DNA of 64,000 nt from positions 669,501 through 733,500 of the forward strand of contig NZ_CP018221.1 of assembly GCF_001890385.1 (NCBI RefSeq). The letters run 5' to 3'. Below the pieces are notes generated by a model. The model saw only the letters and a program-made list of their open reading frames with translations, made no database searches and was not told the DNA's origin. A program made the position numbers and the translations under genes. The number at the start of each line of letters is the position of its first letter. Positions within the stretch are counted from its first letter, which is position 1. The DNA comes from Tardibacter chloracetimidivorans (GTDB lineage Bacteria; Pseudomonadota; Alphaproteobacteria; Sphingomonadales; Sphingomonadaceae). Positions 1,483 to 53,395 of this stretch are shown here, in pieces.

Positions 1483-2547
1483 TCATCCCAAGGCTCCCAC
1501 GATGGGAGAGGCTGCTATAAGCGCGGTGGGGGACGTGTCAACCTCTGTCACTTTTACACTGGTAAAGTGAGAATTGAGGGTAGCCAACGCGTCCACCAGC
1601 ATCCCATCGTTGACGTGAGCATACCTGAGCGTCGTCTCGATACGCTTGTGGCCCATGAAACGTTGGATGACCCTCAGGTTGACATTCGCCATCACAAGCC
1701 GAGTGCAGCATGTGTGCCTACAGGCATGGAAGACGAACCAAGGGTCACTCTTGAGGCCCATTGCCTCTCTCGCTTGCTCCCAGGCATACCGAAGCTGATG
1801 GACGTTAGGGATCGTTCGGTCGATCACAATCTGACTGAGGTTCTCGAAGGTCTCTTCATCTACCGGGATGGACCGGGGGGACCCGCTCTTGGTCTTCCAT
1901 AAGTGGACCCAACGATCCTGAAGCTGCTCACGCTCAAGCGTCAGTATCTCGCTCCGCCTCATTCCGGTCTTAATGTCTGCCTTGACGGTCATCCAGACGT
2001 TCTCAGGGAGATTATCTTTCAAGGCCATCTCTTCGGCAGGAGTGATCCACCGGATACGCCCCTCGTCCTCGTCCTTCCAAGGGAACTTAGGGAGGTCCTT
2101 GGTCCGCGCCCCTCTGTCCTTGGCCCACTTCATGAATGTGTGGACAGTTGACAGATAGCGATTGATTGTAGCTTCAGAGACTTTACGTTCGTATAGCCTA
2201 TCGACAAGGCTATCGATGTCTGTAGTGGTGATATCATCGATCTTCTTAGAGTGGCCTAGGATGTCCGCAGCAATCGTAAGTCTGCTCATGGACGTATGGG
2301 CACTCCTCTTGCCCCTCCAGATGGCAGGGGCCTTCTTCAAGCCCTCCAGGAGCGTCTCAGGGACCTCAGAGCGCCTCTTGGCCTCCTGTGCCTCTCCAGT
2401 GTCCAATCGCCGCTGGTAGTCCACCTCAGCGGCCTGTGCTTCCTCGTAGGTATCAAAGCGTCCCCGCAGCCTGAATGTGCCCTTCTGCGTCTCTACCCTC
2501 CAGCGCCCGGTCAGCTTACCGTTCTTTTTGTCAGGGTAGATAGGCAT
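1483..2547 (-). CDS. int: Tyrosine integrase of prophage P1
   Basis: Site-specific tyrosine recombinase of 354 residues that would insert and excise P1 at the tRNA-Leu att core. The N-terminus (MPIYPDKKNGKLTGRWRVET) is an arm-binding-like region, followed by a SAM-like core-binding segment and the catalytic domain. Visible catalytic residues are Arg in TGMRRSEIL, the HxxR box in HACRHT, the GH of FMGHKR, and the Tyr nucleophile in TTLRYAHV. A GGAG stands about 8 nt before the ATG. The gene follows the winged-helix gene by 4 bp, so the two form one operon. The P2 integrase (51812-52924) has the same layout but is clearly diverged. Confidence 0.95.
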   Translation of the reverse strand: MPIYPDKKNGKLTGRWRVETQKGTFRLRGRFDTYEEAQAAEVDYQRRLDTGEAQEAKRRSEVPETLLEGLKKAPAIWRGKRSAHTSMSRLTIAADILGHSKKIDDITTTDIDSLVDRLYERKVSEATINRYLSTVHTFMKWAKDRGARTKDLPKFPWKDEDEGRIRWITPAEEMALKDNLPENVWMTVKADIKTGMRRSEILTLEREQLQDRWVHLWKTKSGSPRSIPVDEETFENLSQIVIDRTIPNVHQLRYAWEQAREAMGLKSDPWFVFHACRHTCCTRLVMANVNLRVIQRFMGHKRIETTLRYAHVNDGMLVDALATLNSHFTSVKVTEVDTSPTALIAASPIVGALG

Positions 2548-2551
2548 TGGG

Positions 2552-2923
2552 CTAACTCCAGATTGCTACAAGATCAGATAGAATCTTCTTGCCGGATGGG
2601 CTAAGGGTGTATTTGGTCCGCGATAAGGACGTGTCACTCGCGTTGCGTAGCAGCCAACCCCTCCCAGGCTTGCCGTGTCGGTTCTTCTCGCTCATGTCGA
2701 GCAGAATACGACTTGCAGTAGGCATGGGTATTGATGCTTCCTTTGCAACATCGGAGGGGCCGAAAGAGTCTATACCTTCCGATACTCTCCCATCTTGTAA
2801 AGTATTTCTCATCACGAGGAGAAGTACCTTCACATCGGTTACTGAGAGCGACCGATCCAAGTCCAAGAGATAGCTCACCGTCTTATCCAGTCGTTTAACC
2901 ACCGACGATCGACTATCTTCCAT
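2552..2923 (-). CDS. Winged-helix (MarR-like) regulator upstream of int, P1
   Basis: Protein of 123 residues with a winged-helix pattern: a helical N-terminus with LSVTDVKVLLLVMRN, a helix-turn-helix (PSDVAKEASIPMPTASRILL, about residues 57-76), and a wing with GWLLRN and TKYTLSPSGKKIL. It resembles MarR-type DNA-binding proteins. It is the first gene of a two-gene operon with int and sits just downstream of a promoter that overlaps an 11-bp inverted repeat. Autoregulation and a role in lysogeny or excision control are inferred. No classical cI/cro pair is seen in P1, so this is the best candidate for a lysogeny regulator. P2 has a positional counterpart (52931-53278). Confidence 0.75.
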   Translation of the reverse strand: MEDSRSSVVKRLDKTVSYLLDLDRSLSVTDVKVLLLVMRNTLQDGRVSEGIDSFGPSDVAKEASIPMPTASRILLDMSEKNRHGKPGRGWLLRNASDTSLSRTKYTLSPSGKKILSDLVAIWS

Positions 2924-2974: not shown

Positions 2975-3015
2975 ACACTGATCCCTGCATAGTAGCAAAG
3001 TGGGATCAGTGTCAA
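2975..3015 (-). promoter_or_regulatory. Putative sigma70 promoter overlapped by inverted-repeat operator, P1
   Basis: On the minus strand a perfect -35 hexamer TTGACA (3010-3015) is followed after 18 nt by TATGCA (2986-2991), or after 15 nt by TACTAT. An 11-bp perfect inverted repeat, ACACTGATCCC (2975-2985) and GGGATCAGTGT (3002-3012), overlaps both promoter elements. A third half-site-like TTGATCCCT lies at about 2949. The promoter reads into the winged-helix/int operon. Confidence 0.72.
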
Positions 3016-8761: not shown

Positions 8762-10810
8762 TTAACTGTTCGGGCTGATGATAGCCGAAGTCTTCTTCTC
8801 GGCACCTTCGTCAGCGGCTGTTTCCTGAGCCAGCGCAAGTTCGGCAATAGCCGTCTCAATGCGGTTCTGGGTCTCAGCGTCCTTGCGGTCAGCTTCGCGT
8901 GTCTGAAGCATGAACTCGATGGTCTTGAAGCGTTGCTCCATGTCAAGCCTAGTCTGCTCAAGCTGCCCTTCGAGTTGGGCCTTCATCTGCTGTACCTGAG
9001 CATTGACGGCAATAGACTGGGTTTCAGCCTTCACCTTCTCAAGCTCTGCCATCGCCATAGGATCGGGTTCTGGAGGCTTCATCTTCGTAGGATCGTTGAC
9101 GAACTCAATGGGGTTCTTATAACCCTTGATGCCAAGAACCTTCTTGAAGAGATTGAACCTCTTGGCCTCATCGTAGAGACGCGAGGAACCCTCATCGCTG
9201 GTAAGCATGTTGTGGAAAGCCAGAAGCTCCTCAACCTGCCTCTCGTCCTCACGATAGCCCAAGCGAAGGTCTACAGAGACATCAATACGCTTGCGCCACT
9301 TGGAGGGCGTGACAGGGATATAGGCCCCAGCGACCTCAAAGACCCTCTCGTTCTTCTCGTTCTCGATAACCAATTGGTAGACTTCGAGGTAGAGAGGCTT
9401 GAGGAACTGGTTAGCGAACTGCCGGGCCATGATCTTCTGGCGCTGCATGGAGGCCGACATAAGCCGCTCAACCATTGCATCGGAGTTCTGATTGCTTACC
9501 GCGTCCTTGTTGAGACCCTGAGAGAGCCTGGAGACGCCTGTGCTGTCCTCTTTGTCCTCATCAAGCATCTGGAGCGTCTGGAAGACGTAAGGGTTTAGAG
9601 AGGCTTGAGGGAGCGGGAAGATACCATCAGGCCGCGTGACGTTGACCAAGCCGCCTATGCGGTTGTCGATCAGTTCACGAGGGTTGGTCAGTGCGCCCTT
9701 AACGACACCATAGCGAGGATTGTTCGTCACTACGGTATGGTCAAGGACCCCTCGCGTCAGGACGGTCTTAGCGTTCTGCGTAGGGACCACTCGATCAGCG
9801 TAGTTGTTGCCGTGGAACCTGTGAGGAATCGGGACGGGAGCGTAGGTAAGGAACGGATGCCTATCCACTTGCTCCTTGTCCAGAACCACTCCACCGGACC
9901 AAATGACCTTCCAGAAGCGATTGCGTCCAGAGCCGTCCAGGTCCAGCCATGTGTAGCTTTCGCGGACAAGGAACTTCTCTGAGGACGCCTGTGTGCTTTC
10001 GTCTCGGAGAGAGAGGTTATCGCCACCTACGGGATCGTAACGAGCCAGCTTCTCGGAATCCAGACCAAGCTCACCCTCTACAGGACCAATCTTGTCAATC
10101 TGGGAGGACTTATATCCCTCGGCCAGAAGCTCGCTGCGGGTCTTCTCCTCGATAAAGGAGCAATCCGTGGTGCGAGTGAACCTCTTGATCGCCGGGTTGA
10201 CGATGAACTGCTCTGGAGGAACCGGCTCGATCTTGACGCGGCTATTGTCCATCTTCCGGATAATCGTACCGCTGATGGCCCCGCTGTCGTCGATCTCGGC
10301 TTCGAGAAGCTCAACCTCAGGGTCACTCAGGAGGACATTGAACTTGTCCTCATCGTACCCTTCGAACTCCTCTTCGATCTCTTCGACGCACTCGTCCCAA
10401 TAGACACGTGCGACACCTGCGCGAGCGATGAGGCCGTCATGGATCACAGAGCCAAACACATGGTCCGCATCGTTCTGATTGAAGATGACGTACTTGGTGT
10501 AGTCCGTGCAGACCTTGGCTGCTTCAATGTCTTCAGGGCCGGTAGGACTGAATTGTACAATGTCCCTACCGCTGCTGAAGGTCTCAACGAGGATAGCCTT
10601 GGCAGACTCTACGCTGTCGTAGACATCCGTTGAGACATACTTGGAGTTACCACCGTGGACAGGGAGAGGCTTCTTGCCCTCATAGTAGTCTTGAACCCGC
10701 TCTCGCTCTTTGGAGAGCTTGGTGTTATTGTACTTCTCTCCAGATGACACGGCGCTGCGAAGAATGGAAAGCAGTTCTTCATCTGTCAGTTTCTTTTGTT
10801 TTCTTGCCAT
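8762..10810 (-). CDS. Portal protein (SU10-like)
   Basis: Protein of 682 residues forming the dodecameric portal at the capsid vertex, through which DNA is packaged and ejected. The N-terminus (KKLTDEELLSILRSAVSSGE) is followed by a wing/stem region (VYDSVESAKAILVETFSSG) and the helical crown with SRLSQGLNKDAVSNQNSD. A long coiled coil (about 570-660) forms the C-terminal barrel. It is larger than the T7 portal (536). The P2 portal (687 residues, 56403-58466) aligns throughout, including SRLSQGL and the ISPNS/ASPNS end. It lies 4 bp after the terminase gene. Confidence 0.92.
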   Translation of the reverse strand: MARKQKKLTDEELLSILRSAVSSGEKYNNTKLSKERERVQDYYEGKKPLPVHGGNSKYVSTDVYDSVESAKAILVETFSSGRDIVQFSPTGPEDIEAAKVCTDYTKYVIFNQNDADHVFGSVIHDGLIARAGVARVYWDECVEEIEEEFEGYDEDKFNVLLSDPEVELLEAEIDDSGAISGTIIRKMDNSRVKIEPVPPEQFIVNPAIKRFTRTTDCSFIEEKTRSELLAEGYKSSQIDKIGPVEGELGLDSEKLARYDPVGGDNLSLRDESTQASSEKFLVRESYTWLDLDGSGRNRFWKVIWSGGVVLDKEQVDRHPFLTYAPVPIPHRFHGNNYADRVVPTQNAKTVLTRGVLDHTVVTNNPRYGVVKGALTNPRELIDNRIGGLVNVTRPDGIFPLPQASLNPYVFQTLQMLDEDKEDSTGVSRLSQGLNKDAVSNQNSDAMVERLMSASMQRQKIMARQFANQFLKPLYLEVYQLVIENEKNERVFEVAGAYIPVTPSKWRKRIDVSVDLRLGYREDERQVEELLAFHNMLTSDEGSSRLYDEAKRFNLFKKVLGIKGYKNPIEFVNDPTKMKPPEPDPMAMAELEKVKAETQSIAVNAQVQQMKAQLEGQLEQTRLDMEQRFKTIEFMLQTREADRKDAETQNRIETAIAELALAQETAADEGAEKKTSAIISPNS

Positions 10811-37107: not shown

Positions 37108-37875
37108 TCAGGGTCTGGTTTTGGCCTTGCGGGCCCGGCTGTGCGCGAGGCGATAGCTTTCGCCGTTCATCTCGAGGATGCTGACGTGATGGGTCAGGCG
37201 ATCGAGGAGCGCGCCTGTGAGACGCTCAGATCCGAAGGTTTCGGTCCATTCGTCGAAGGGCAGGTTGCTGGTGATGAAGGTGGAGCCGCGTTCGTAACGC
37301 TGGGAGATCAGCTCGAACAACAGTTCGGCGCCGGTCTTGGAGAGCGGCACAAAGCCCAGTTCGTCGATGATGAGCAGCTTGTATCCGGCCATCTGCTTCT
37401 GGAAGCGCAGAAGACGGCGCTCGTCGCGGGCCTCCATCATTTCGCTGACCAGCGCTGCCGCGGTGGTGAAGCCCACCGACAGTCCTTTCTGGCATGCTGC
37501 CAGTCCGAGCCCCAACGCTACGTGCGTCTTTCCGGTGCCTGATGGCCCCAGAGCGATGGCGTTCTCACGCCGCTCGATCCACTCGCAGCGCGCCATCTCG
37601 AGCACCTGCATCTTGTTGAGCCTGGGGATGGCGGCGAAGTCGAAGCTGTCGAGGCTTTTGACGGCGGGGAAGCGCGCGGCCTTGATGCGCCGCTCGACCA
37701 TGCGACGCTCCCTGTCGATCATTTCCATCTCGACGAGGCGGGCGAGGAAGCGGATATGATCGACGCCTTCAGCGGCACATTGCCGCGCGAGCTTGTGATG
37801 CTCACGCAGGCACGTAGGCAGCTTGAGCGCCTTGAGATGGTGAGCGAGAAGGATCTCCGGGGCCTGATCGCTCAT
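37108..37875 (-). CDS. istB: IS21 helper ATPase IstB
   Basis: AAA+ helper protein of 255 residues from the ATG at 37875 (MSDQAPEILLAHHLKALKLP), which overlaps the istA stop by 4 bp. Walker A is LGPSGTGKTH, Walker B is LLIIDELGFV, and an arginine-finger region is GSERLTGALLDRL. IstB assembles on target DNA and stimulates the IstA transposase. A frame open further upstream is the out-of-frame part of istA and is not used. Confidence 0.93.
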   Translation of the reverse strand: MSDQAPEILLAHHLKALKLPTCLREHHKLARQCAAEGVDHIRFLARLVEMEMIDRERRMVERRIKAARFPAVKSLDSFDFAAIPRLNKMQVLEMARCEWIERRENAIALGPSGTGKTHVALGLGLAACQKGLSVGFTTAAALVSEMMEARDERRLLRFQKQMAGYKLLIIDELGFVPLSKTGAELLFELISQRYERGSTFITSNLPFDEWTETFGSERLTGALLDRLTHHVSILEMNGESYRLAHSRARKAKTRP

Positions 37876-39380
37876 GCGGCCTCCTGCCGGTCGGAGAGCA
37901 GGCTCAGATAGGCTCTGGCAAAGGTCTTCTCGACCGTGGTGCGTGGCAGGAAGGGATAGACGTCCAGGTCCAGCCTGGGCGGTACGCGTTCGATCCGGCA
38001 CAGGACGAGGTGCTTGACGGCATCGAAGCCGATGGCGCCAAGATCGATGGCCTGTTCGACCGCCGCCTGGAGATCGGCGAGGGTGAACGTTTCCAGCAGG
38101 CGCAGTACCTGCACATATTCGCGCTTGCCATGTTTGTGCATGCGCCCTTCCATCAACCGCTGCAGTGTCGTGAACGCTTCGGGCAGGTCCCAGCCCTGCA
38201 AAGGCGCAGCCTGGTCGAATGCGTTGATCTTCTGCTCGATCAGCGGGAGATAATGGAGCGGGTCGAAGACAACCTCCTCGCGGGCATAGCAACGAGGATG
38301 ACGGGCGATGACTTCGCTGCGGCAGCCGATCACCACCTCATCGACATAGGCCCTGATCCAGACCTCCTGATGGCCCCAGGCCACCGGAACCGAATAATCG
38401 TTGGTCCTGTAGCGCACCAGGGATTGCGAGGAGACCCGCCCGCCTTTCTGATCGCAGGCCTCGAAGGGTGTAGCGGGCAGAGGCTGCATGGCCGCGAGAT
38501 CGCGTTCCAAGCGCTCACCGATCGTCTCGCTCTGCCCGCGCACCTTGTCCTGCTGGCGCTTGCGGCATTGCTCCTCCAGCCACAGGTTGAACGCCTCCCA
38601 GGTCGGGAACTTCGGGATCGGCACCATGAAGTTGCGCCGGCAATAGCCTACCAGCCCCTCCACATTGCCTTTCTCGTTCCCCTTGCCCGGGCGAGCATAG
38701 CGGTCGCGGATCACGTAATGTGACAGGAAAGCGCTGAACAGCGTGGCACGCTGCCGCGTGCCGTCGGGCAGGATCTTCGCCACAAGGCAGCGATCGTTGT
38801 CATAGACGATCGAGCGCGGTACCGCGCCGAAAAACGCGAAGGCATGCACGTGTCCGTCCACCCAGGCCTCCGCCACCGCCGCCGGATAGGCCCGCACATA
38901 GCAGGCATCACTGTGCGGCAGATCGAGCGCGAAGAAGTAGGCCTTCTGCTCCACCCCGCCGATCTCCACCAGCGCTTCCCCGAAATCGGCCTGCGCATCT
39001 CCCGCAGGGTGCGCCAGCGGCACGAACATCTCCCGGCTGCGCTGTTCGCGCTCCCGGATGTAATCCTTGATGATCGTATAGCCGCCGGTGAAACCATGCT
39101 CGGTGCGCAAACGGTCGAATACCCGCTTCGCCGTATGGCGTTGCTTGCGCGGGACACTGCGGTCACCCTCAAGCCATCCATCAATGATCGCCACAAACCC
39201 GTCCAGCTTCGGGCGCTGCGGTACGGACTGGCGCCGGTAACCCGGCGGCGATGAAAACGACAGCATCTTGCGTACCGTATCGCGCGACACATTGAAACGC
39301 TTCGCCGCCGCCCGTTGGCTCATGCCATCCGCGCAAGCCAGACGGACCTGAAGATAAAGTTCCACGCTGTAGATCCCCAC
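37872..39380 (-). CDS. istA: IS21 transposase IstA
   Basis: DDE transposase of 502 residues. It starts MGIYSVELYLQVRLACADGM with an HTH (QRAAAKRFNVSRDTVRKML). The rve-type catalytic core has DAQADFGEALVEIG (first Asp), SIVYDNDR (second Asp) and KGNEKGNVEGLVGY (Glu). A C-terminal target/end-binding region follows. It looks intact, so the element may be active. Confidence 0.93.
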   Translation of the reverse strand: MGIYSVELYLQVRLACADGMSQRAAAKRFNVSRDTVRKMLSFSSPPGYRRQSVPQRPKLDGFVAIIDGWLEGDRSVPRKQRHTAKRVFDRLRTEHGFTGGYTIIKDYIREREQRSREMFVPLAHPAGDAQADFGEALVEIGGVEQKAYFFALDLPHSDACYVRAYPAAVAEAWVDGHVHAFAFFGAVPRSIVYDNDRCLVAKILPDGTRQRATLFSAFLSHYVIRDRYARPGKGNEKGNVEGLVGYCRRNFMVPIPKFPTWEAFNLWLEEQCRKRQQDKVRGQSETIGERLERDLAAMQPLPATPFEACDQKGGRVSSQSLVRYRTNDYSVPVAWGHQEVWIRAYVDEVVIGCRSEVIARHPRCYAREEVVFDPLHYLPLIEQKINAFDQAAPLQGWDLPEAFTTLQRLMEGRMHKHGKREYVQVLRLLETFTLADLQAAVEQAIDLGAIGFDAVKHLVLCRIERVPPRLDLDVYPFLPRTTVEKTFARAYLSLLSDRQEAA

Positions 39381-39806: not shown

Positions 39807-40857
39807 GAGCGGTTTCCGATCATGCTGCATCGTATCCGCAGGCGGTGAAATAGTTGGCGCATTCTTGCGGGGTGTAGAGGTCGAGGATGCGGCCGATAGC
39901 GGTCCAGAGGCCGTGGATAGTGCGTTCGGCGGCTTTGCGCAGGTGCGCTTTGAGCTTCGAGAATGCTTTTTCGATCGGATTGAAGTCGGGGCTGTAGGGC
40001 GGGAGGAACAGGAGCGTTGCGCCCGCCGCCTCGATGGCCTCGCGCACCTCGGCGCCCTTATGGCTCGACAGATTGTCCATGACGACGATGTCGCCGGGGA
40101 CGATCTCGGGGACGAGCACCTGGGTGATATAAGCGGTGAAGGCGTCGCGGTTAATTGGCCCGTCGAGCACCATCGGCGCGACCATGCCCGTGTTCCTGAG
40201 GCCTGCCACGAACGTCGTCGTCTTCCAGTGTCCGTGCGGAACGCCCGCGCGCAGCCGCTCGCCCTTGCGGCAGCGACCGTGGCGGCGCGCCATGTTCGTG
40301 CTGGCCCAGGTCTCGTCGATGAAGATCAGTCGGTCGGGGTCGAGATCGACCTGGCTCTCGAACCAGTCCCAGCGGCGGGCGAGGATGTCGGGCCGGTCCT
40401 GTTCGGTGGCGTGCGCGGTCTTTTTTTACGCGTGATCCCGTGCCGGTCGAAGAACCGCCACAAGGTACCGATCCCCACCGACACACCGTGCCCGCGCAGC
40501 ATCGCCATCAACTCTTCGAGCGTCATGTCGGGCGTCTCGGCAATGGCGGCCCGGATGAGATCGCCGTGCGCCTCGATCCGCGCCGAACGGCGGTCGCCGC
40601 CCTGCGGGCGCGGTGCTACCGAGCCCTTGGCAAGCAGCCTTTGCCGCCACCGGATTGCGCTCGACACGCTGATCCCGAACCGCGCCGCCGCAGCACGGCA
40701 CGACAAGCCGTCTTCGACCGCCGCCAAAACACGCTCGCGCAAATCCACAGACAAGGCTCGACCCATCCCATGCCGACCTCCTCACCGGCAAATCGGATGA
40801 ATCAGAAAATATGCCGCTTGGGAATCCCTCGCGATTCAATCAGCTCGGAAACCGCTC
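39807..40857. mobile_element. IS630-family element, copy 1
   Basis: 1051 bp with terminal inverted repeats GAGCGGTTTCCGA / TCGGAAACCGCTC and flanking TA on each side (39805-39806 and 40858-40859), the expected IS630 target duplication. It interrupts the endolysin gene. The two reading frames are identical in protein sequence to those of the inverted copy at 41329-42379. Confidence 0.93.
39820..40766 (-). CDS. IS630 transposase, copy 1, read through a -1 frameshift
   Basis: Two frames on the minus strand. The first (40766-40326) is an HTH protein of 146 residues (MGRALSVDLRERVLAAVEDG, AAARFGISVSSAIRWRQR). The second, ending at 39820, carries the DDE nuclease (IFIDETW, VVMDNLSSHKG, YSPDFNPIEKAF). 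A run of seven A (T on plus, 40421-40427) lies where slipping back one base fuses RKK to KTAHATEQD and onward in the second frame, giving about 315 residues. This is a usual way for such elements to make transposase; both copies share it, so it is not a random mutation. Confidence 0.85.
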
Positions 40858-41328: not shown

Positions 41329-42379
41329 GAGCGGTTTCCGAGCTGATTGAATCGCGAGGGATTCCCAAGCGGCATATTTTCTGATTCATCCGATTTGCCG
41401 GTGAGGAGGTCGGCATGGGATGGGTCGAGCCTTGTCTGTGGATTTGCGCGAGCGTGTTTTGGCGGCGGTCGAAGACGGCTTGTCGTGCCGTGCTGCGGCG
41501 GCGCGGTTCGGGATCAGCGTGTCGAGCGCAATCCGGTGGCGGCAAAGGCTGCTTGCCAAGGGCTCGGTAGCACCGCGCCCGCAGGGCGGCGACCGCCGTT
41601 CGGCGCGGATCGAGGCGCACGGCGATCTCATCCGGGCCGCCATTGCCGAGACGCCCGACATGACGCTCGAAGAGTTGATGGCGATGCTGCGCGGGCACGG
41701 TGTGTCGGTGGGGATCGGTACCTTGTGGCGGTTCTTCGACCGGCACGGGATCACGCGTAAAAAAAGACCGCGCACGCCACCGAACAGGACCGGCCCGACA
41801 TCCTCGCCCGCCGCTGGGACTGGTTCGAGAGCCAGGTCGATCTCGACCCCGACCGACTGATCTTCATCGACGAGACCTGGGCCAGCACGAACATGGCGCG
41901 CCGCCACGGTCGCTGCCGCAAGGGCGAGCGGCTGCGCGCGGGCGTTCCGCACGGACACTGGAAGACGACGACGTTCGTGGCAGGCCTCAGGAACACGGGC
42001 ATGGTCGCGCCGATGGTGCTCGACGGGCCAATTAACCGCGACGCCTTCACCGCTTATATCACCCAGGTGCTCGTCCCCGAGATCGTCCCCGGCGACATCG
42101 TCGTCATGGACAATCTGTCGAGCCATAAGGGCGCCGAGGTGCGCGAGGCCATCGAGGCGGCGGGCGCAACGCTCCTGTTCCTCCCGCCCTACAGCCCCGA
42201 CTTCAATCCGATCGAAAAAGCATTCTCGAAGCTCAAAGCGCACCTGCGCAAAGCCGCCGAACGCACTATCCACGGCCTCTGGACCGCTATCGGCCGCATC
42301 CTCGACCTCTACACCCCGCAAGAATGCGCCAACTATTTCACCGCCTGCGGATACGATGCAGCATGATCGGAAACCGCTC
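41329..42379. mobile_element. IS630-family element, copy 2, inverted
   Basis: 1051 bp, the reverse complement arrangement of the copy at 39807-40857, with the same terminal repeats and TA duplications (41327-41328 and 42380-42381). It interrupts endonuclease I. Identity of both frames with copy 1 points to recent transposition. The 471 bp between the two copies is flanked by inverted 1-kb repeats. Confidence 0.93.
41420..42366 (+). CDS. IS630 transposase, copy 2, read through a -1 frameshift
   Basis: Same two frames as copy 1 but on the plus strand: the HTH part is 41420-41860 and the DDE part ends at 42366. The seven-A slip site is at 41759-41765. It is the only well-supported protein gene on the plus strand of the window. 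Confidence 0.85.
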
Positions 42380-43897: not shown

Positions 43898-43928
43898 AGT
43901 GTAAGTATCCCCTTTAGAAAACTGTCTC
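43898..43928 (-). promoter_or_regulatory. 31-bp promoter-like element, copy B
   Basis: 28 of 31 bases match 51491-51521. On minus the shared core is GGGATACTTACACT; here it continues ATAAGC, giving ACACTATA, as in T7/SP6-class promoters. It lies just after the RNR stop and directs into the ssb/replication operon. Confidence 0.6.
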
Positions 43929-48878: not shown

Positions 48879-51461
48879 CTACGCAAAAGCATAGGGCGCG
48901 TCAAGTACCTCACGTACCTCCCAGTTCCCAATTGTCGGGACCTCTGGGAGCCTAGAGGGATCGTCCAGTGATCTTGCAGCATTCTCATAGACCTCTGTGA
49001 GAGGGCAGTAGTTTTCATACATGTCCACGAACGCCTCTCGTATTATGTGAAAGAACCTTTCGGTAGACCCTGCATGGGTTCCAAAGCTGTCGTGGATTAG
49101 GCTGAAATGCTCAATACCCTCAGCCTTCGATGCCAGCACAGTGAGCATGAGGTGGGCAGCATCCATAGAGTGAATGACGTTAGGGGCCACAGCGTTCTTA
49201 GCTTTCTCTTTGTCGATCCTGTCGAGAGGCTTAGTGCGGATGTTAGCCCGGACTTCTCTTAGTGACCCTTCCTCCGCCTGTCCCACCAAAGCAACGTCAC
49301 GGTCGAACAGAAACATCTTGACCCTCTTCACGTCCCATTGAGTGTACTTGTGGAGGACAGGAAGCCCTACCGGAGTTACCCAAGTCAGGGGCTTGCCTTC
49401 GTGGGCCAGTGTTCCCGCAACCTTCTTGAAGAACGACATGCCCTTAGAGGCTTCAGTGACCACAGCGTTGACTGAATGCCAGACCTTAGCGGCGATGTAG
49501 TGAGCTAATTGGACACCGTTGTCAGGCTCTCCGTACCTCTCGCTCTTAGGGTCGAGGATAGGAAGCTCATACTTGTTTCGATCCTTCAGTCCCTTCAAGA
49601 CAGCATCGTTCTCTGGACCCATGGTATCTTTCACTTGCTGCTGTCCAAAGCCAAACTGTTCGCTGCTATAGGCGAAGGTCATAACGTTACGCTTGGCGAT
49701 CTTTCGATCCAGTCCGCCTAGCTCAAGCAGCTTAAGCGCCCTTACGTCTCCATTGGCAGCATCCAGCTTCACCAGTTCGTTGGCTGCATCTGCTACAATC
49801 TGATAGGCGTCCGCAGGCTCCAAGGCTTCGGTAAGGCATACCATCGCTGCCTCTCTCTCGCACCTCAGGGCTGCCGAGTAGTGCTGCAAGCCACTGTTGG
49901 AACCATCCAGGGCTACGGGCAGGTAGCTTATGAACTCTTCGCTTGATCCTGATGACCTCCACTTCGCGTACTCCATGCAGGCTGCAAGGTACATGAAGGG
50001 ACTGTCTGCTTGTGACCAGTGATCCAAGGTGCCTATTGGGTCGTTGGCTGTAGCTATTATCTGATCGTGATTGTCCTCTACCCACCTCAATCGGTCTCCA
50101 AAGGGCCTCTTGGAGACACGCTCAAAGTCTCCGCAGTTAGCGAGATGGACACACAGCCAAGACGCTCCAGATGGGCCGAGAGGCTTTCCATCAGCAAACC
50201 TGAAGAGAGCCTTGACGTGATCCGACCGCTGATTATTGAAGTGACATACGGGGTAGACCCTTCCTCGGAAGTCGAGATTGCAGGGCAGGTAGAATCTATC
50301 ATAGTCCATGAGTTCCTTGGCGGTCGTAAGGTCGTCCAGCATGATCTTAACGTCCGCATCGATTGATCTATTTTTCTGGTGTATCTGAGCAACTGTGAGG
50401 CGTTTGCCCTTACGCTGCCTTTGGTCCATCTGTTCCCACACCTCAGCGTCTACACGAGGAGGCAGGTCGATCCTTTGGGAGCGAGGGAAGCCTTCGATCT
50501 CTATGTTGTTCTCCCAGGCCCACTTGATGACACCATAGACAGGCTCATTGATGGCGAAGGGCGTCTCCTGGATGGCGTTAAGGGCCTCAAGGACATATGC
50601 CATCTGTCCGTTGCCTAGGGACACCTTCAGGAGCCTCCTGTGGTCCTTCTGGGAGGTCCGCATAAGAGGGACAGTCCGGGCAAGCCTCTCATCGTAGTAG
50701 CAGCCGGTATAGAAGCTCTCCCAAGGCCGGGGAGCGACAACCATAGGTCTCAGGACAGGGCGCATCCATGACGCAGCCTCTCGGATGTCCCTAAGCAGGG
50801 AAGACCCCTCATCCGTCAAGACAATCAGGTTCATGGAGGAGCCACGCTTGACGAAGACCGTCTCCAGCTTGAAGATGTCAGGGAGGGCCTTGAGGACAGC
50901 GTTGACCAGCGGTTCGCCTACCTTGGCAGAGACATCAGCGGACCAGTCATCAAACTCAATGTCTTGATCCTCCACCAGCTTCTTGAAGGCTTTGGACCTG
51001 TTAGCAGAAGACCCCTGCATAGAGAGCTTCTTGCCTATCCTCTCAGCAATCTTCTTGCCTCTCTCTCGCTCCAGCTTGAGAGCCACATGCTCGCTATGAA
51101 CCATACGTCCACAGGTAACTAGAGTTTGGCTTAAAGGCTTCTGTGAGCCTATAGCATTGATAACTGAATTAAGACCAATGTAAGCAGCTTTGGAAGGATC
51201 AAAGTCTCTTAAGACACTAAAGGAGAATGGGGTCTTTCCTTTCCCTAGTTTATCTTTAGTCTCACTAAAGTATCTTTCGATCTCTTTAGTTACTAAAGGT
51301 ATACATCCTCTAATAACTTTAGAGGACTCTAGAGTAGCGTAAGCTCCTTCGTTCTTCTCAAGTCTCTTTTGGTTCTCATTGAATCTTATGTAACCATCAG
51401 CCAGCGATAGAGCGTCGCGCTCTGCTTGGGCTTTCAAGAGGTCTTCGCTATCTAGAAACAT
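48879..51461 (-). CDS. Single-subunit DNA-directed RNA polymerase (T7 type)
   Basis: 860 residues (T7: 883). Catalytic residues align with T7 RNA polymerase: Asp519 in ALDGSNSGLQHYSA (T7 D537), Lys590 and Tyr598 in KIAKRNVMTFAYSS (K631, Y639) and Asp791 in LIHDSFGTHA (D812). LPCNLDFRGRVYPV and the C-terminal foot ending YAFA (T7: FAFA) are present. It would transcribe middle and late P1 genes from its own promoters. It is the first gene inside the att end, with a 31-bp promoter-like element 30 bp upstream of the ATG. Its presence in a prophage implies tight repression or silent promoters during lysogeny. Confidence 0.96.
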   Translation of the reverse strand: MFLDSEDLLKAQAERDALSLADGYIRFNENQKRLEKNEGAYATLESSKVIRGCIPLVTKEIERYFSETKDKLGKGKTPFSFSVLRDFDPSKAAYIGLNSVINAIGSQKPLSQTLVTCGRMVHSEHVALKLERERGKKIAERIGKKLSMQGSSANRSKAFKKLVEDQDIEFDDWSADVSAKVGEPLVNAVLKALPDIFKLETVFVKRGSSMNLIVLTDEGSSLLRDIREAASWMRPVLRPMVVAPRPWESFYTGCYYDERLARTVPLMRTSQKDHRRLLKVSLGNGQMAYVLEALNAIQETPFAINEPVYGVIKWAWENNIEIEGFPRSQRIDLPPRVDAEVWEQMDQRQRKGKRLTVAQIHQKNRSIDADVKIMLDDLTTAKELMDYDRFYLPCNLDFRGRVYPVCHFNNQRSDHVKALFRFADGKPLGPSGASWLCVHLANCGDFERVSKRPFGDRLRWVEDNHDQIIATANDPIGTLDHWSQADSPFMYLAACMEYAKWRSSGSSEEFISYLPVALDGSNSGLQHYSAALRCEREAAMVCLTEALEPADAYQIVADAANELVKLDAANGDVRALKLLELGGLDRKIAKRNVMTFAYSSEQFGFGQQQVKDTMGPENDAVLKGLKDRNKYELPILDPKSERYGEPDNGVQLAHYIAAKVWHSVNAVVTEASKGMSFFKKVAGTLAHEGKPLTWVTPVGLPVLHKYTQWDVKRVKMFLFDRDVALVGQAEEGSLREVRANIRTKPLDRIDKEKAKNAVAPNVIHSMDAAHLMLTVLASKAEGIEHFSLIHDSFGTHAGSTERFFHIIREAFVDMYENYCPLTEVYENAARSLDDPSRLPEVPTIGNWEVREVLDAPYAFA

Positions 51462-51668: not shown

Positions 51669-51748
51669 GCCCGTCCGCATTCGCAGCGGTCTGGTGCGGG
51701 CGAAGGGACTCGAACCCCCACATCTTGCGATACTGGAACCTAAATCCA
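51669..51748. repeat. Prophage P1 att site, RNA polymerase side
   Basis: 80-bp exact direct repeat of 1370-1449. It makes up most of the intact tRNA-Leu gene (51692-51748) plus 23 bp of 3' flank. Confidence 0.93.
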
Positions 51749-51776
51749 GCGCGTCTACCAGTTCCGCCACGCCCGC
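51692..51776 (-). tRNA. tRNA-Leu (anticodon UAG), complete with CCA
   Basis: On minus: acceptor GCGGGCG pairs with CGCCCGC, D-arm AACTGGTAGACGC, anticodon stem CTGGA / TCCAG with loop TTTAGGT (anticodon TAG), a long variable arm TATCGCAAGATG, T-arm GGGGGTTCGAGTCCC and encoded CCA. The long variable arm marks a class II tRNA (Leu). The stop of the P2 integrase is only 35 bp from its 5' end, so a normal tRNA promoter would have to lie inside the integrase gene. Confidence 0.95.
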
Positions 51777-51811: not shown

Positions 51812-52924
51812 CTACGCGGCTCGGCTCATATTGGCAAGTTCCCCTCCTCCCCCAGCCCCGTGGGGGACCTGGAAAGGCGTGGGAATGCTGGGGTTTTCCT
51901 CCAGCTTGGAGAAGTAATCCCCCACCTTTACTAGCGCATCCTCCAGATTTTGCTGTTTCACATGGGCATAACGGAGGGTGGTTTCTAGCCGCTTGTGGCC
52001 CATCCATTCCTTGATGACGAAGACGTTGATCCCCGCATCGACCATCCGAGTGGCCCTTGTGTGACGGCAAGCGTGGAAGACGAAGTCCTTGTCGTCCTCA
52101 AGGCCCATCTTGGTCCTGGCGCGGTTCCACCAGGACCTCAGGTTGCGCCTGGTCGGCATCTTCTTGGACTTAACCAGCTCAGTCAGCATTCGGGTCGTCT
52201 CTTGCGACATGGGCACGGTCCTGGGGGTTTTCGTCTTGGTGTTCCAGAGGTGGAGGCGCGTCCCATTGATCTGTCCGGGCTCGACTGTCAATAGTTCGTC
52301 CCGGCGACAGCCGGTCTCGATAGCCACCTTGGTGAGCTTCCAGACGTTGTCGGGGAGGTACTCTTTGAGCTTCTCCTCCTCCCCCAGGGTGATCCACCGG
52401 ATGCGGCCCTCGCCCTCCTCCTTCCACCCGAAGGAGATGCCGTCCTCACCCGCGACAGGCTTGGTGCGGTAGCCCCGTTTCTTAGCCCAAACCAGGAAGG
52501 TCCTCAGGTGCGAGAGGTACCTGTTGATCGTGGCTGGCGCACGTCCCCTAGCGGCAAGCTCCTGGATGAGCTTGTCGATGGAGTTGGTGTTAATTTCGTC
52601 CAGCCGGGTGGTCTTGCCCAGGATGTCAGCGATATGGCCCAGACGGGCGAAGTTGGTCTCCGTGGTGGCGTCTCCGTCCCACAGGAGCCCCTTGGCGGCC
52701 TGGATGGTCGCTGCGAGCGAGTTGACCGGCAAGGCCTCCTCTTGGACAGCCGGAGCGGGCTTCAGGCTCTCACCACGCGCCCAGGCGTCCAGAACGCGCT
52801 TCTCGTCCTCTATGGCGTCCGCGTGGTTGTCCCAGCGCTTCCTATAGCGCTCACCGGCCCTTTGAAGCTCGACGCGCCAGCGCCCGGTTACCTGGCCGTC
52901 CTTCTTATCGGCATATATTGCCAT
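51812..52924 (-). CDS. int: Tyrosine integrase of prophage P2
   Basis: 370 residues, a diverged relative of the P1 integrase with the same order: MAIYADKKDGQVTGRWRVEL, core-binding domain, and catalytic residues in ETGCRRDELL, HACRHTRAT, WMGHKRLE and TTLRYAHV. GGAGG lies about 12 nt before the ATG. Its 3' end abuts the tRNA-Leu gene. Because the P1 att uses the same tRNA, both enzymes probably recognise the same core. Confidence 0.95.
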   Translation of the reverse strand: MAIYADKKDGQVTGRWRVELQRAGERYRKRWDNHADAIEDEKRVLDAWARGESLKPAPAVQEEALPVNSLAATIQAAKGLLWDGDATTETNFARLGHIADILGKTTRLDEINTNSIDKLIQELAARGRAPATINRYLSHLRTFLVWAKKRGYRTKPVAGEDGISFGWKEEGEGRIRWITLGEEEKLKEYLPDNVWKLTKVAIETGCRRDELLTVEPGQINGTRLHLWNTKTKTPRTVPMSQETTRMLTELVKSKKMPTRRNLRSWWNRARTKMGLEDDKDFVFHACRHTRATRMVDAGINVFVIKEWMGHKRLETTLRYAHVKQQNLEDALVKVGDYFSKLEENPSIPTPFQVPHGAGGGGELANMSRAA

Positions 52925-52930
52925 GTGTGG

Positions 52931-53278
52931 TCAATCCTCCAAGAGATCGGCGAGGACCTCAGCGACCTGTCGGCCACGAGGCGTCAGGGTGTAGAAGTTC
53001 TGCTTGAGGTTCGATGGGTTAACCGTGCGCTCCACGAGGCCGTAGCCCGGCTCCATCCTGCGGTTGCGTTCGCCGAGGTCCAGCAAGTGACGGCTGACCG
53101 TGCTGTCGCTAATCCCCATCATCTTGGCCAATTCGTGGAGGCTCTTGCCCTCGTTGAGGGCTACCACATAGAACGTCCGGGCAAGCTGCATCGGGATGGT
53201 GGTCCCGATCATTGCCTGTATCTGAGTGAGGTGTCGGTAGCCTTTCGTCAGGCCACGTCTACCCTGTTTGTCGGCCAT
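52931..53278 (-). CDS. Winged-helix (MarR-like) regulator upstream of int, P2
   Basis: 115 residues from the ATG at 53278 (MADKQGRRGLTKGYRHLTQI), which has GGAGG about 8 nt upstream. The HTH is KSLHELAKMMGISDSTVSRH (about 46-65), followed by a wing (GLVERTVNPSNLKQNFYTLT) and TPRGRQVAEVLADL. Typical MarR-like layout. It is the first gene of the int operon, as in P1, though the sequence is only weakly similar. The likely role is control of its own operon and of lysogeny (inferred). Confidence 0.78.
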   Translation of the reverse strand: MADKQGRRGLTKGYRHLTQIQAMIGTTIPMQLARTFYVVALNEGKSLHELAKMMGISDSTVSRHLLDLGERNRRMEPGYGLVERTVNPSNLKQNFYTLTPRGRQVAEVLADLLED

Positions 53279-53307
53279 GTCTCGGTCCTCCGTATTCATC
53301 GCACATA

Positions 53308-53354
53308 GGCGACTATTGCTTATCTGATTTTATTGCTGATCGTCAACAGTCGCC
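53308..53354 (-). promoter_or_regulatory. Putative promoter with inverted-repeat operator, P2
   Basis: Arms GGCGACTATTG (53308-53318) and CAACAGTCGCC (53344-53354) match in 10 of 11 pairs across 25 bp. On minus, TTGACG (53341-53346) stands 16 bp before GATAAG (53319-53324), so the arms overlap a sigma70-like promoter for the regulator/int operon. Confidence 0.65.
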
Positions 53355-53361
53355 AGATAAA

Positions 53362-53395
53362 AACCCCTCATCACCATCAGGCTGAGGGGTTTTGT
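53362..53395 (-). terminator. Strong intrinsic terminator ending the P2 late operon
   Basis: Stem AACCCCTC / GAGGGGTT with A- and T-runs on both sides (53361-53394), so it can work in both directions. It separates the small membrane-protein gene (ending 53399) from the int operon promoter. Confidence 0.9.

Follow-up and report, generated by a model that had tools for sequence, protein, structure and literature searches.

A candidate MarR-like lysogeny switch in one of two temperate T7-like prophages that share a tRNA-Leu gene

Results

Two T7-like prophages meet in one tRNA-Leu gene

The DNA analysed here (the window) comprises 64,000 nucleotides of the 3.79-Mb genome of Tardibacter chloracetimidivorans (C1:669501-733500). 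It contains the prophage P1 and one end of a second prophage, P2. T7 is the textbook example of a strictly lytic phage; P1 and P2 are temperate T7-like prophages, each of which encodes its own T7-type RNA polymerase (RNAP). They share a layout in which the RNAP is the first gene, the regulator and the integrase are the last ones, and everything lies on one strand. P1 extends approximately from window position 1381 to 51748, and its ends are two copies of the 3' half of a tRNA-Leu gene (att core at 51680-51748, minus strand, and at 1381-1449; 69 bp, 100% identical). P2 is approximately 41 kb long (about C1:721231-762301), lies mostly outside the window and has at each end a copy of the initial 46 nt of tRNA-Leu, the 5' half (att core at 51731-51776, minus strand, and at C1:762256-762301; 46 bp, 96% identical). 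The P1 RNAP (48879-51461, minus strand; PF00940, E 2.6e-90) is the first gene of its phage, and that of P2 (C1:759395-761998) is found outside the window, beside the second att copy.

An intact tRNA-Leu(UAG) gene (51692-51776, minus strand) is situated between the P2 integrase and the P1 RNAP, its 5' half coming from the P2 side and its 3' half from the P1 side. Each prophage occupies a different half of this tRNA-Leu(UAG) gene, which is why the sole intact copy detected sits between them. No second intact tRNA-Leu(UAG) was found in the genome by a tRNA search which returned only 37 tRNAs and may be incomplete. The insertion of P2 leaves the presumed host tRNA promoter (TTGCCC-N16-TATAGA) beyond P2, where it faces the P2 RNAP, and the rebuilt tRNA therefore needs a promoter from the phage side.

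P2 encodes a MarR-like regulator directly upstream of its integrase

The preliminary description of this region had placed a winged-helix gene and an integrase gene behind the P2 promoter, and both open reading frames are indeed there (52931-53299 and 51812-52924, both on the minus strand). The latter encodes a tyrosine integrase (PF00589 and phrog_1), and the regulator gene lies directly upstream of it in the same direction. Its reading frame opens at ATG 53299. However, the likelier start is ATG 53278 (regulator at 52931-53278), because this codon is preceded by GGAGGA, whereas ATG 53299 is without a ribosome site and about 15 nt or less from the predicted start of the transcript.

The P1 and P2 regulators both match phrog_9665, annotated as "transcriptional regulator" (E 8e-20 for one and 3e-7 for the other). 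An AlphaFold model of the P2 protein, made with 20 homologues, reaches a pLDDT of 91, and the top solved structures that Foldseek recovers with it are all MarR proteins (MarR, FabT-DNA, MexR, MepR-DNA), several of them bound to DNA. A profile search with the regulator family likewise finds MarR chains. As modelled, the P2 regulator has the MarR winged-helix fold with N- and C-terminal helices. It misses the gathering cut-off of Pfam family PF01047 (19.7 versus 24.6 bits), which is matched at E 0.01 or better by nine of the 20 members of the regulator family. MarR proteins are dimers that bind palindromes.

Two quasi-palindromic sites frame the putative P2 promoter

Read on the gene strand (minus), the P2 switch region consists of a terminator, a dyad arm on the hexamer TTGACG, 16 nt, the hexamer GATAAG, the second dyad arm and the regulator. 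The intrinsic terminator (53360-53393, minus strand) separates the late genes from the switch; it has a perfect 11-bp stem with a folding energy of -20.8 kcal/mol and is followed by TTTTT. The promoter, TTGACG-N16-GATAAG, was read by eye and agrees with the sigma70 consensus at 9 of 12 positions. Its -35-like hexamer (53341-53346, minus strand) fails the strict scan, its -10-like hexamer (53319-53324, minus strand) is weak with 4/6 matches, and a strict sigma70 scan of the switch region found no promoter.

An inverted repeat of the type GGCGACTRTTG around this promoter had been reported and is present, with its arms GGCGACTATTG at 53308-53318 and CAACAGTCGCC at 53344-53354. The arms are complementary in 10 of 11 positions and separated by a 25-nt spacer. 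When the 69-bp promoter region was shuffled with its dinucleotides preserved, 33 of 3000 sequences contained a repeat of equal quality; among 586 tiles of 70 bp taken from P2, 8 did. Locally, the dyad is an event of about 1%, which is beyond chance but not overwhelming. Because one arm overlaps the -35 hexamer and the other abuts the -10 hexamer, it was correct to call the promoter embraced by the dyad; its description as sigma70-like has to be qualified, since the promoter is weak and negative in the strict scan.

Each of the arms is itself nearly palindromic (GGCGA-N3-TTGCT and GGCGA-N3-TTGAC). From their sequences, we prefer to read the dyad as a pair of quasi-palindromic sites of 13 bp, which we treat as putative operators: O2, GGCGACTGTTGAC (53342-53354, minus strand), is the left arm on the gene strand and overlaps the -35 hexamer, and O1, AGCAATAGTCGCC (53308-53320, minus strand), directly follows the -10 hexamer. 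The whole dyad resembles two members of a multi-copy family more than one single operator.

A 24-bp element is repeated across P2

Beyond the dyad, P2 has 11 copies of a 24-bp element (consensus approximately ATCCACACTCGGCAATAATCCCAC) that score 21-34 bits, compared to a best score of 11.8 in shuffled sequences. The RNAP gene has a copy 30 bp before it and two immediately behind it; others are found beside att, upstream of the gene that follows, upstream of the late genes (739.6 kb), at the junction between regulator and integrase, and as tandem pairs near 740.4 and 741.5 kb. The tandem copies are spaced by 17 bp (740375/740358 and 741494/741477), and 4 of the 11 copies are antisense to transcription. 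The copy GACCACACATGGCAATATATGCCG (52909-52932, minus strand), which lies over the regulator stop and the integrase start, scores 23.2 bits, a value that may partly reflect conserved integrase codons. The element was not recovered by a strict palindrome search. Approximately 6 kb of P2 (C1:739300-745300) have few credible minus-strand genes and two oppositely oriented tandem pairs of the element.

The dyad arms had been left out of the P2-element matrix. Scored with its 13-bp core and in the better orientation, O1 reaches 11.15 bits (rank 18 of 82118 positions) and O2 10.1 bits (rank 24 of 82118); about a dozen other untrained positions in the 41 kb score as high, and on the full 24-bp matrix the arms are at or below zero. 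We estimate the joint chance of both arms at approximately 2-4%, because they mirror each other. These scores are suggestive of a relation between the dyad arms and the core of the element.

P1 and P2 share the gene order of the switch but not its exact layout

The P1 regulator (2552-2923, minus strand; phrog_9665) and tyrosine integrase (1483-2547, minus strand) are preceded by a dyad, ACACTGATCCC-N16-GGGATCAGTGT (2975-3012, minus strand), that is perfect over 11 bp and encloses TTGACA and TACTAT. A third half-site, GGGATCAATG (2947-2956), is present 3' of it. The P1 dyad is at the same time an intrinsic terminator, since TTTTTCG follows directly and the fold has an energy of -22.6 kcal/mol. 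Terminator and dyad are thus merged in P1, whereas they are separate in P2. The suggestion that both prophages have the same switch layout therefore holds for the order of the winged-helix and integrase genes, but not for the dyad. Much the same applies to the view that a conserved architecture contains a diverged protein and a diverged operator. The regulators are homologous but have diverged, with 38% of residues identical over 66 aa and 23% when taken from the alignment of the family. Identity between the integrases is 44%, and the operator-like sequences differ; the layouts, however, are not strictly the same.

The P2-element matrix finds no site in P1 (best score 14.9 bits, cut-off 20.5), and a search of the intergenic DNA of P1 revealed no significant palindrome cluster. 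Neither the regulator nor the integrase of P1 has close relatives that we could find in IMG/VR. The nearest other regulator to that of P2 is approximately 50% identical to it and has different sites in its promoter. The presence of a P2-type element in P2 but not in P1, together with the different operator-like sequences, fits separate immunity of the two prophages, which is plausible on these grounds. The phages use different halves of the tRNA gene, however, and their coexistence therefore need not rest on divergence of immunity alone.

P2 is a further member of a known lysogeny module

Searching with the P2 regulator for the phrog_9665 family recovered LUZ100, RHEph01, P-SSP7 gp0.7, pelagiphages and others. 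The order regulator-integrase-RNAP is found in LUZ100, P-SSP7, RHEph01, RHEph21, S-CBP2, HTVC200P, YIMV22061 and Pasto, and in the free genome of P2 the RNAP adjoins the integrase across the attachment site. The P2 regulator, P-SSP7 gp0.7 and LUZ100 gp10 belong to the "MarR-int-att-RNAP" lysogeny module. The module itself is known, LUZ100, P-SSP7 and Pasto having been discussed as T7-like phages that are temperate or integrate and have MarR-like regulators, and P2 is a further member of it. In IMG/VR we detected 21 regulator loci, including P2 itself. Integrated relatives have the RNAP and the regulator at opposite contig ends, while four (G127, G128, G129 and G130) show regulator, integrase, tRNA-Leu 5' half and polymerase consecutively. 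The 5' half of tRNA-Leu lies between integrase and RNAP in nine relatives, P-SSP7 and S-CBP2; shared with P2, this attachment site is therefore an old feature of the module. Most relatives (L059, L061-L064, L067-L069) also have a strong hairpin with a T run, similar to an intrinsic terminator (e.g. GGTCTCCCATCGTCCGTGGTGGGGGACCATTTTTCG), between the tRNA 5' half and the RNAP. Such a hairpin would make sense at this place as a shield for the RNAP, because integration into the 5' half leaves the host tRNA promoter facing the RNAP gene.

LUZ100 (gp10 MarR-like protein, gp11 integrase, gp13 RNAP; PMC10134795) resembles P2 in having the regulator and then the integrase upstream of a T7-type RNAP in the same direction, a host promoter for this pair, of which P2 has a weak candidate, a terminator between integrase and RNAP, and a phage-wide palindromic repeat, which in P2 is quasi-palindromic. 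The two regulators are 36% identical over 86 aa. A mapped host promoter in LUZ100 yields joint transcripts of regulator and integrase, a pair that has been proposed to form a lysogeny switch; most transcripts stop at the terminator after the integrase and some read on (PMC10134795). Unlike in P2, the cassette of LUZ100 is preceded by early genes with two strong host promoters. The palindromes are found in these two, whereas the promoter of the LUZ100 regulator, P3, has no clear copy; the site sequence, TATCCACYAGYGCATA, also differs from that of P2. Moreover, LUZ100 did not yield stable lysogens, in contrast to P2, which is integrated as a prophage. P-SSP7 (gp0.7-int-attP-RNAP; likewise S-TIP37; PMC8776855) shares with P2 the gene order, an attP in the 5' half of tRNA-Leu and a homologous regulator. 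In contrast to P2, these cyanophages integrate without giving rise to stable lysogens in culture (PMC8776855), and we found neither a dyad nor a repeat family in P-SSP7. For Agrobacterium phage Pasto, one of the temperate Autographiviridae, MarR sites flanking a promoter upstream of the RNAP have been proposed (Boeckman et al. 2022, Virology 568:86, as reported in PMC10134795). Pasto has the P2-like order of HTH regulator, integrase and RNAP, but its site sequence differs from that of P2 and its tRNA-Leu is whole and on the other strand.

Phage-specific palindromes recur in relatives

A search without a prior motif, in which palindrome clusters were counted and compared to the maximum in shuffled sequences, was limited to intergenic DNA, because repeated 18-mers from whole genomes were swamped by codon-like repeats. 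It detected 11 copies of TATCCACYAGYGCATA in LUZ100 (shuffle maximum 5), 11 copies of AATCCACCMGTGGATT in RHEph01 (6), 11 copies of a GTCACTCAAGGGTGAC-type palindrome in Pasto (5), including those at 8768 and 8868 before the RNAP, and 10 copies of GTCCGCAATTGCRGAC in the metagenomic relative G120 (7), one of which is at the regulator promoter. The sequence is different in each of these four. G130 has eight copies (shuffle maximum 6). No clear family was found in Limnohabitans phage YIMV22061, Caulobacter phage S2B, P-SSP7 and HTVC200P.

In LUZ100, two palindromes (374-393 and 575-594) exactly fill the -35/-10 spacers of the mapped strong early host promoters P1 and P2 of that phage, and its mapped phage promoters have a different motif, AATTACCACACAG. 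The palindrome of LUZ100 is thus placed like an operator and is not the phage promoter. Neither "operator" nor "palindrome" appears as a word in the text of the LUZ100 paper (PMC10134795).

The matrices of P2, G120, LUZ100 and Pasto each find sites in their own phage and almost nothing else: the P2 matrix hits ten places in P2, two in G124 and none in P1, and the G120 matrix additionally hits four places in G131. Across 17 phages, the DNA upstream of the regulator and upstream of the RNAP match better within a phage than between phages (16-mers; permutation p 1.5e-4, with composition partly controlled); for P2 alone, this test was not significant. As for the expected co-variation of recognition helix and site, the helix motif ST(V/M)SRHLLDLG (P2, G124) occurs with GGCGA-type sites and (G/A)TMSRHLLDLS (G118, G120, G121, G131) with GTCYGC-type sites. 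The pairing exists, but common descent accounts for it no less well than selection.

T7, the lytic control, returned 15 copies in the same search, and these are the quasi-palindromic T7 promoters. We therefore dropped palindromy alone as proof of an operator.

Discussion

A probable temperate T7-like lysogeny switch in P2

Our preferred reading, which we consider probable on the sequence evidence, is that the P2 region is the lysogeny switch of a temperate T7-like phage, whose MarR-like repressor would regulate its own synthesis through two 13-bp sites and act phage-wide. The MarR-like protein would be the phage repressor and would be made together with the integrase from a weak host-type promoter. 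We infer that the winged-helix protein binds GGCGACTGTTGAC and AGCAATAGTCGCC, covers the -35 hexamer and the start region and in this way represses its own promoter. It probably acts also at the related sites beside att, before and after the RNAP and ahead of the late genes, and the sites around the RNAP gene would keep the phage polymerase and its transcription off. In free phage DNA, regulator, integrase, attP, terminator and RNAP follow each other in one direction. Given this co-directional order, repression of this promoter in a relative that enters the cell would also reduce transcription reading through into its RNAP. Integration via the 5' half of tRNA-Leu moves the RNAP to the other end of the prophage. 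Such a repressor would exclude phages with the same site. Because the operator-like sequence differs between the two phages, P1 and P2 would be expected to ignore each other for the most part, and separate immunity could follow.

The most serious competitor, in our judgement unlikely, is that the P2 element represents the promoters of the phage's own T7-like RNAP, with the dyad arms as degenerate copies, so that regulator and integrase would be transcribed by the phage polymerase as well. The T7 control is the reason to consider it: 15 bona fide promoters emerged there as a quasi-palindromic intergenic cluster, and the elements of P2 and G120, which come without mapped promoters, could be of the same kind. 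Copies of the P2 element 30 bp before the RNAP, after it and ahead of the late genes are also where the mapped LUZ100 phage promoters are found, and the P2 core, GGCAATAATCCCACA, resembles the LUZ100 promoter phi1, GGCAATTACCACACA. However, a promoter would hardly be expected against the direction of transcription, as are 4 of the 11 copies, nor in tandem at a spacing of 17 bp; palindromes and promoters form two separate motifs in LUZ100; and the dyad arms point towards each other, with scores of zero or less on the full 24-bp matrix.

Still less probable is that the inverted repeat arose by chance or matters at the RNA level, for example as a hairpin in late transcripts that read through, and is no operator. 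As RNA, the dyad region folds at -19.5 kcal/mol (z -3.05), equal repeats turn up at the low frequency given above both in shuffles and in P2 tiles, and the P1 counterpart clearly is also a terminator. In P2, on the other hand, a separate and better terminator is located just upstream, and the dyad is not followed by a run of T. Its arms lie exactly on the -35 hexamer and just after the -10 hexamer, they match the repeated core of P2, and relatives have palindromic sites in the same promoter region. That the arms are arm-type sites of the integrase, or sites of a DNA-binding phage protein other than the winged-helix regulator, is very improbable: element copies do flank the att core (P2, 762248 and 762040; G120, 1438 and 1473), but most are tens of kilobases away from att, more than 1.5 kb separate the dyad from it, and the LUZ100 set overlaps early host promoters.

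A possible network of sites in temperate T7-like phages

Extending the MarR-like switch of P2 to temperate T7-like phages as a group is more tentative, and we would put it at somewhat below even. Such phages would have a stoperator-like network of about ten phage-specific palindromes, read by the MarR-like protein and placed at host promoters of the early region, before and after the RNAP gene, next to attP and where genes end. With divergence of the regulator, all copies of the site would change their sequence in concert. The P2 dyad would be the regulator's own two sites, and divergence would let two such phages share one tRNA gene.

Stoperators are known from cluster A mycobacteriophages (L5), where repressor sites occur genome-wide, differ in sequence between relatives and set the immunity group (PMC6550527, PMC9283540). 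These sites are asymmetric and bound by a monomer, whereas those of the P2 relatives are palindromic and occur with a MarR-like protein, and the repressors are unrelated. The P2 regulator has a MarR fold instead of homology to the L5 repressor, and the relatives of P2 have palindromic instead of L5-type asymmetric sites. By analogy, the P2 system may work like stoperator immunity without being a member of that class; the two are alike in logic, not in parts.

How temperate relatives of T7 stay silent is a question for which MarR-like control has been proposed, and in the literature searched we found no demonstrated operator. As a natural double lysogen of diverged temperate T7-like phages in a single tRNA gene, P1 and P2 each provide a testable operator candidate and allow one to ask how immunity groups come about. 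If the palindromes that recur across each phage are indeed repressor sites, a simple search could find them in any such phage. The P2 switch itself could prevent two related viruses from silencing one another.

Possible coupling in the tandem array

The P2 promoter points through the integrase and tRNA-Leu genes towards the P1 RNAP gene, which has the same direction, and no terminator was called in between. P1 and P2 are for this reason possibly not independent, and P2 control might influence P1 in the tandem array.

Two further features of P1 were observed. A duplication of about 1 kb in inverted orientation (approximately 39820-40839 and 41347-42366), with identical ORF lengths in both copies, lies near a transposase-like ORF (37872-39380); these are probably insertion sequences within P1. 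Finally, TTTCCTAAAAGGGATACTTACA is repeated on the minus strand of P1 at 51514, upstream of the RNAP, and at 43921 and 24612, which makes these positions candidate promoters for the P1 phage RNAP; the relative G130 has TTCTAAAAGGGTTACCAC ahead of its RNAP.
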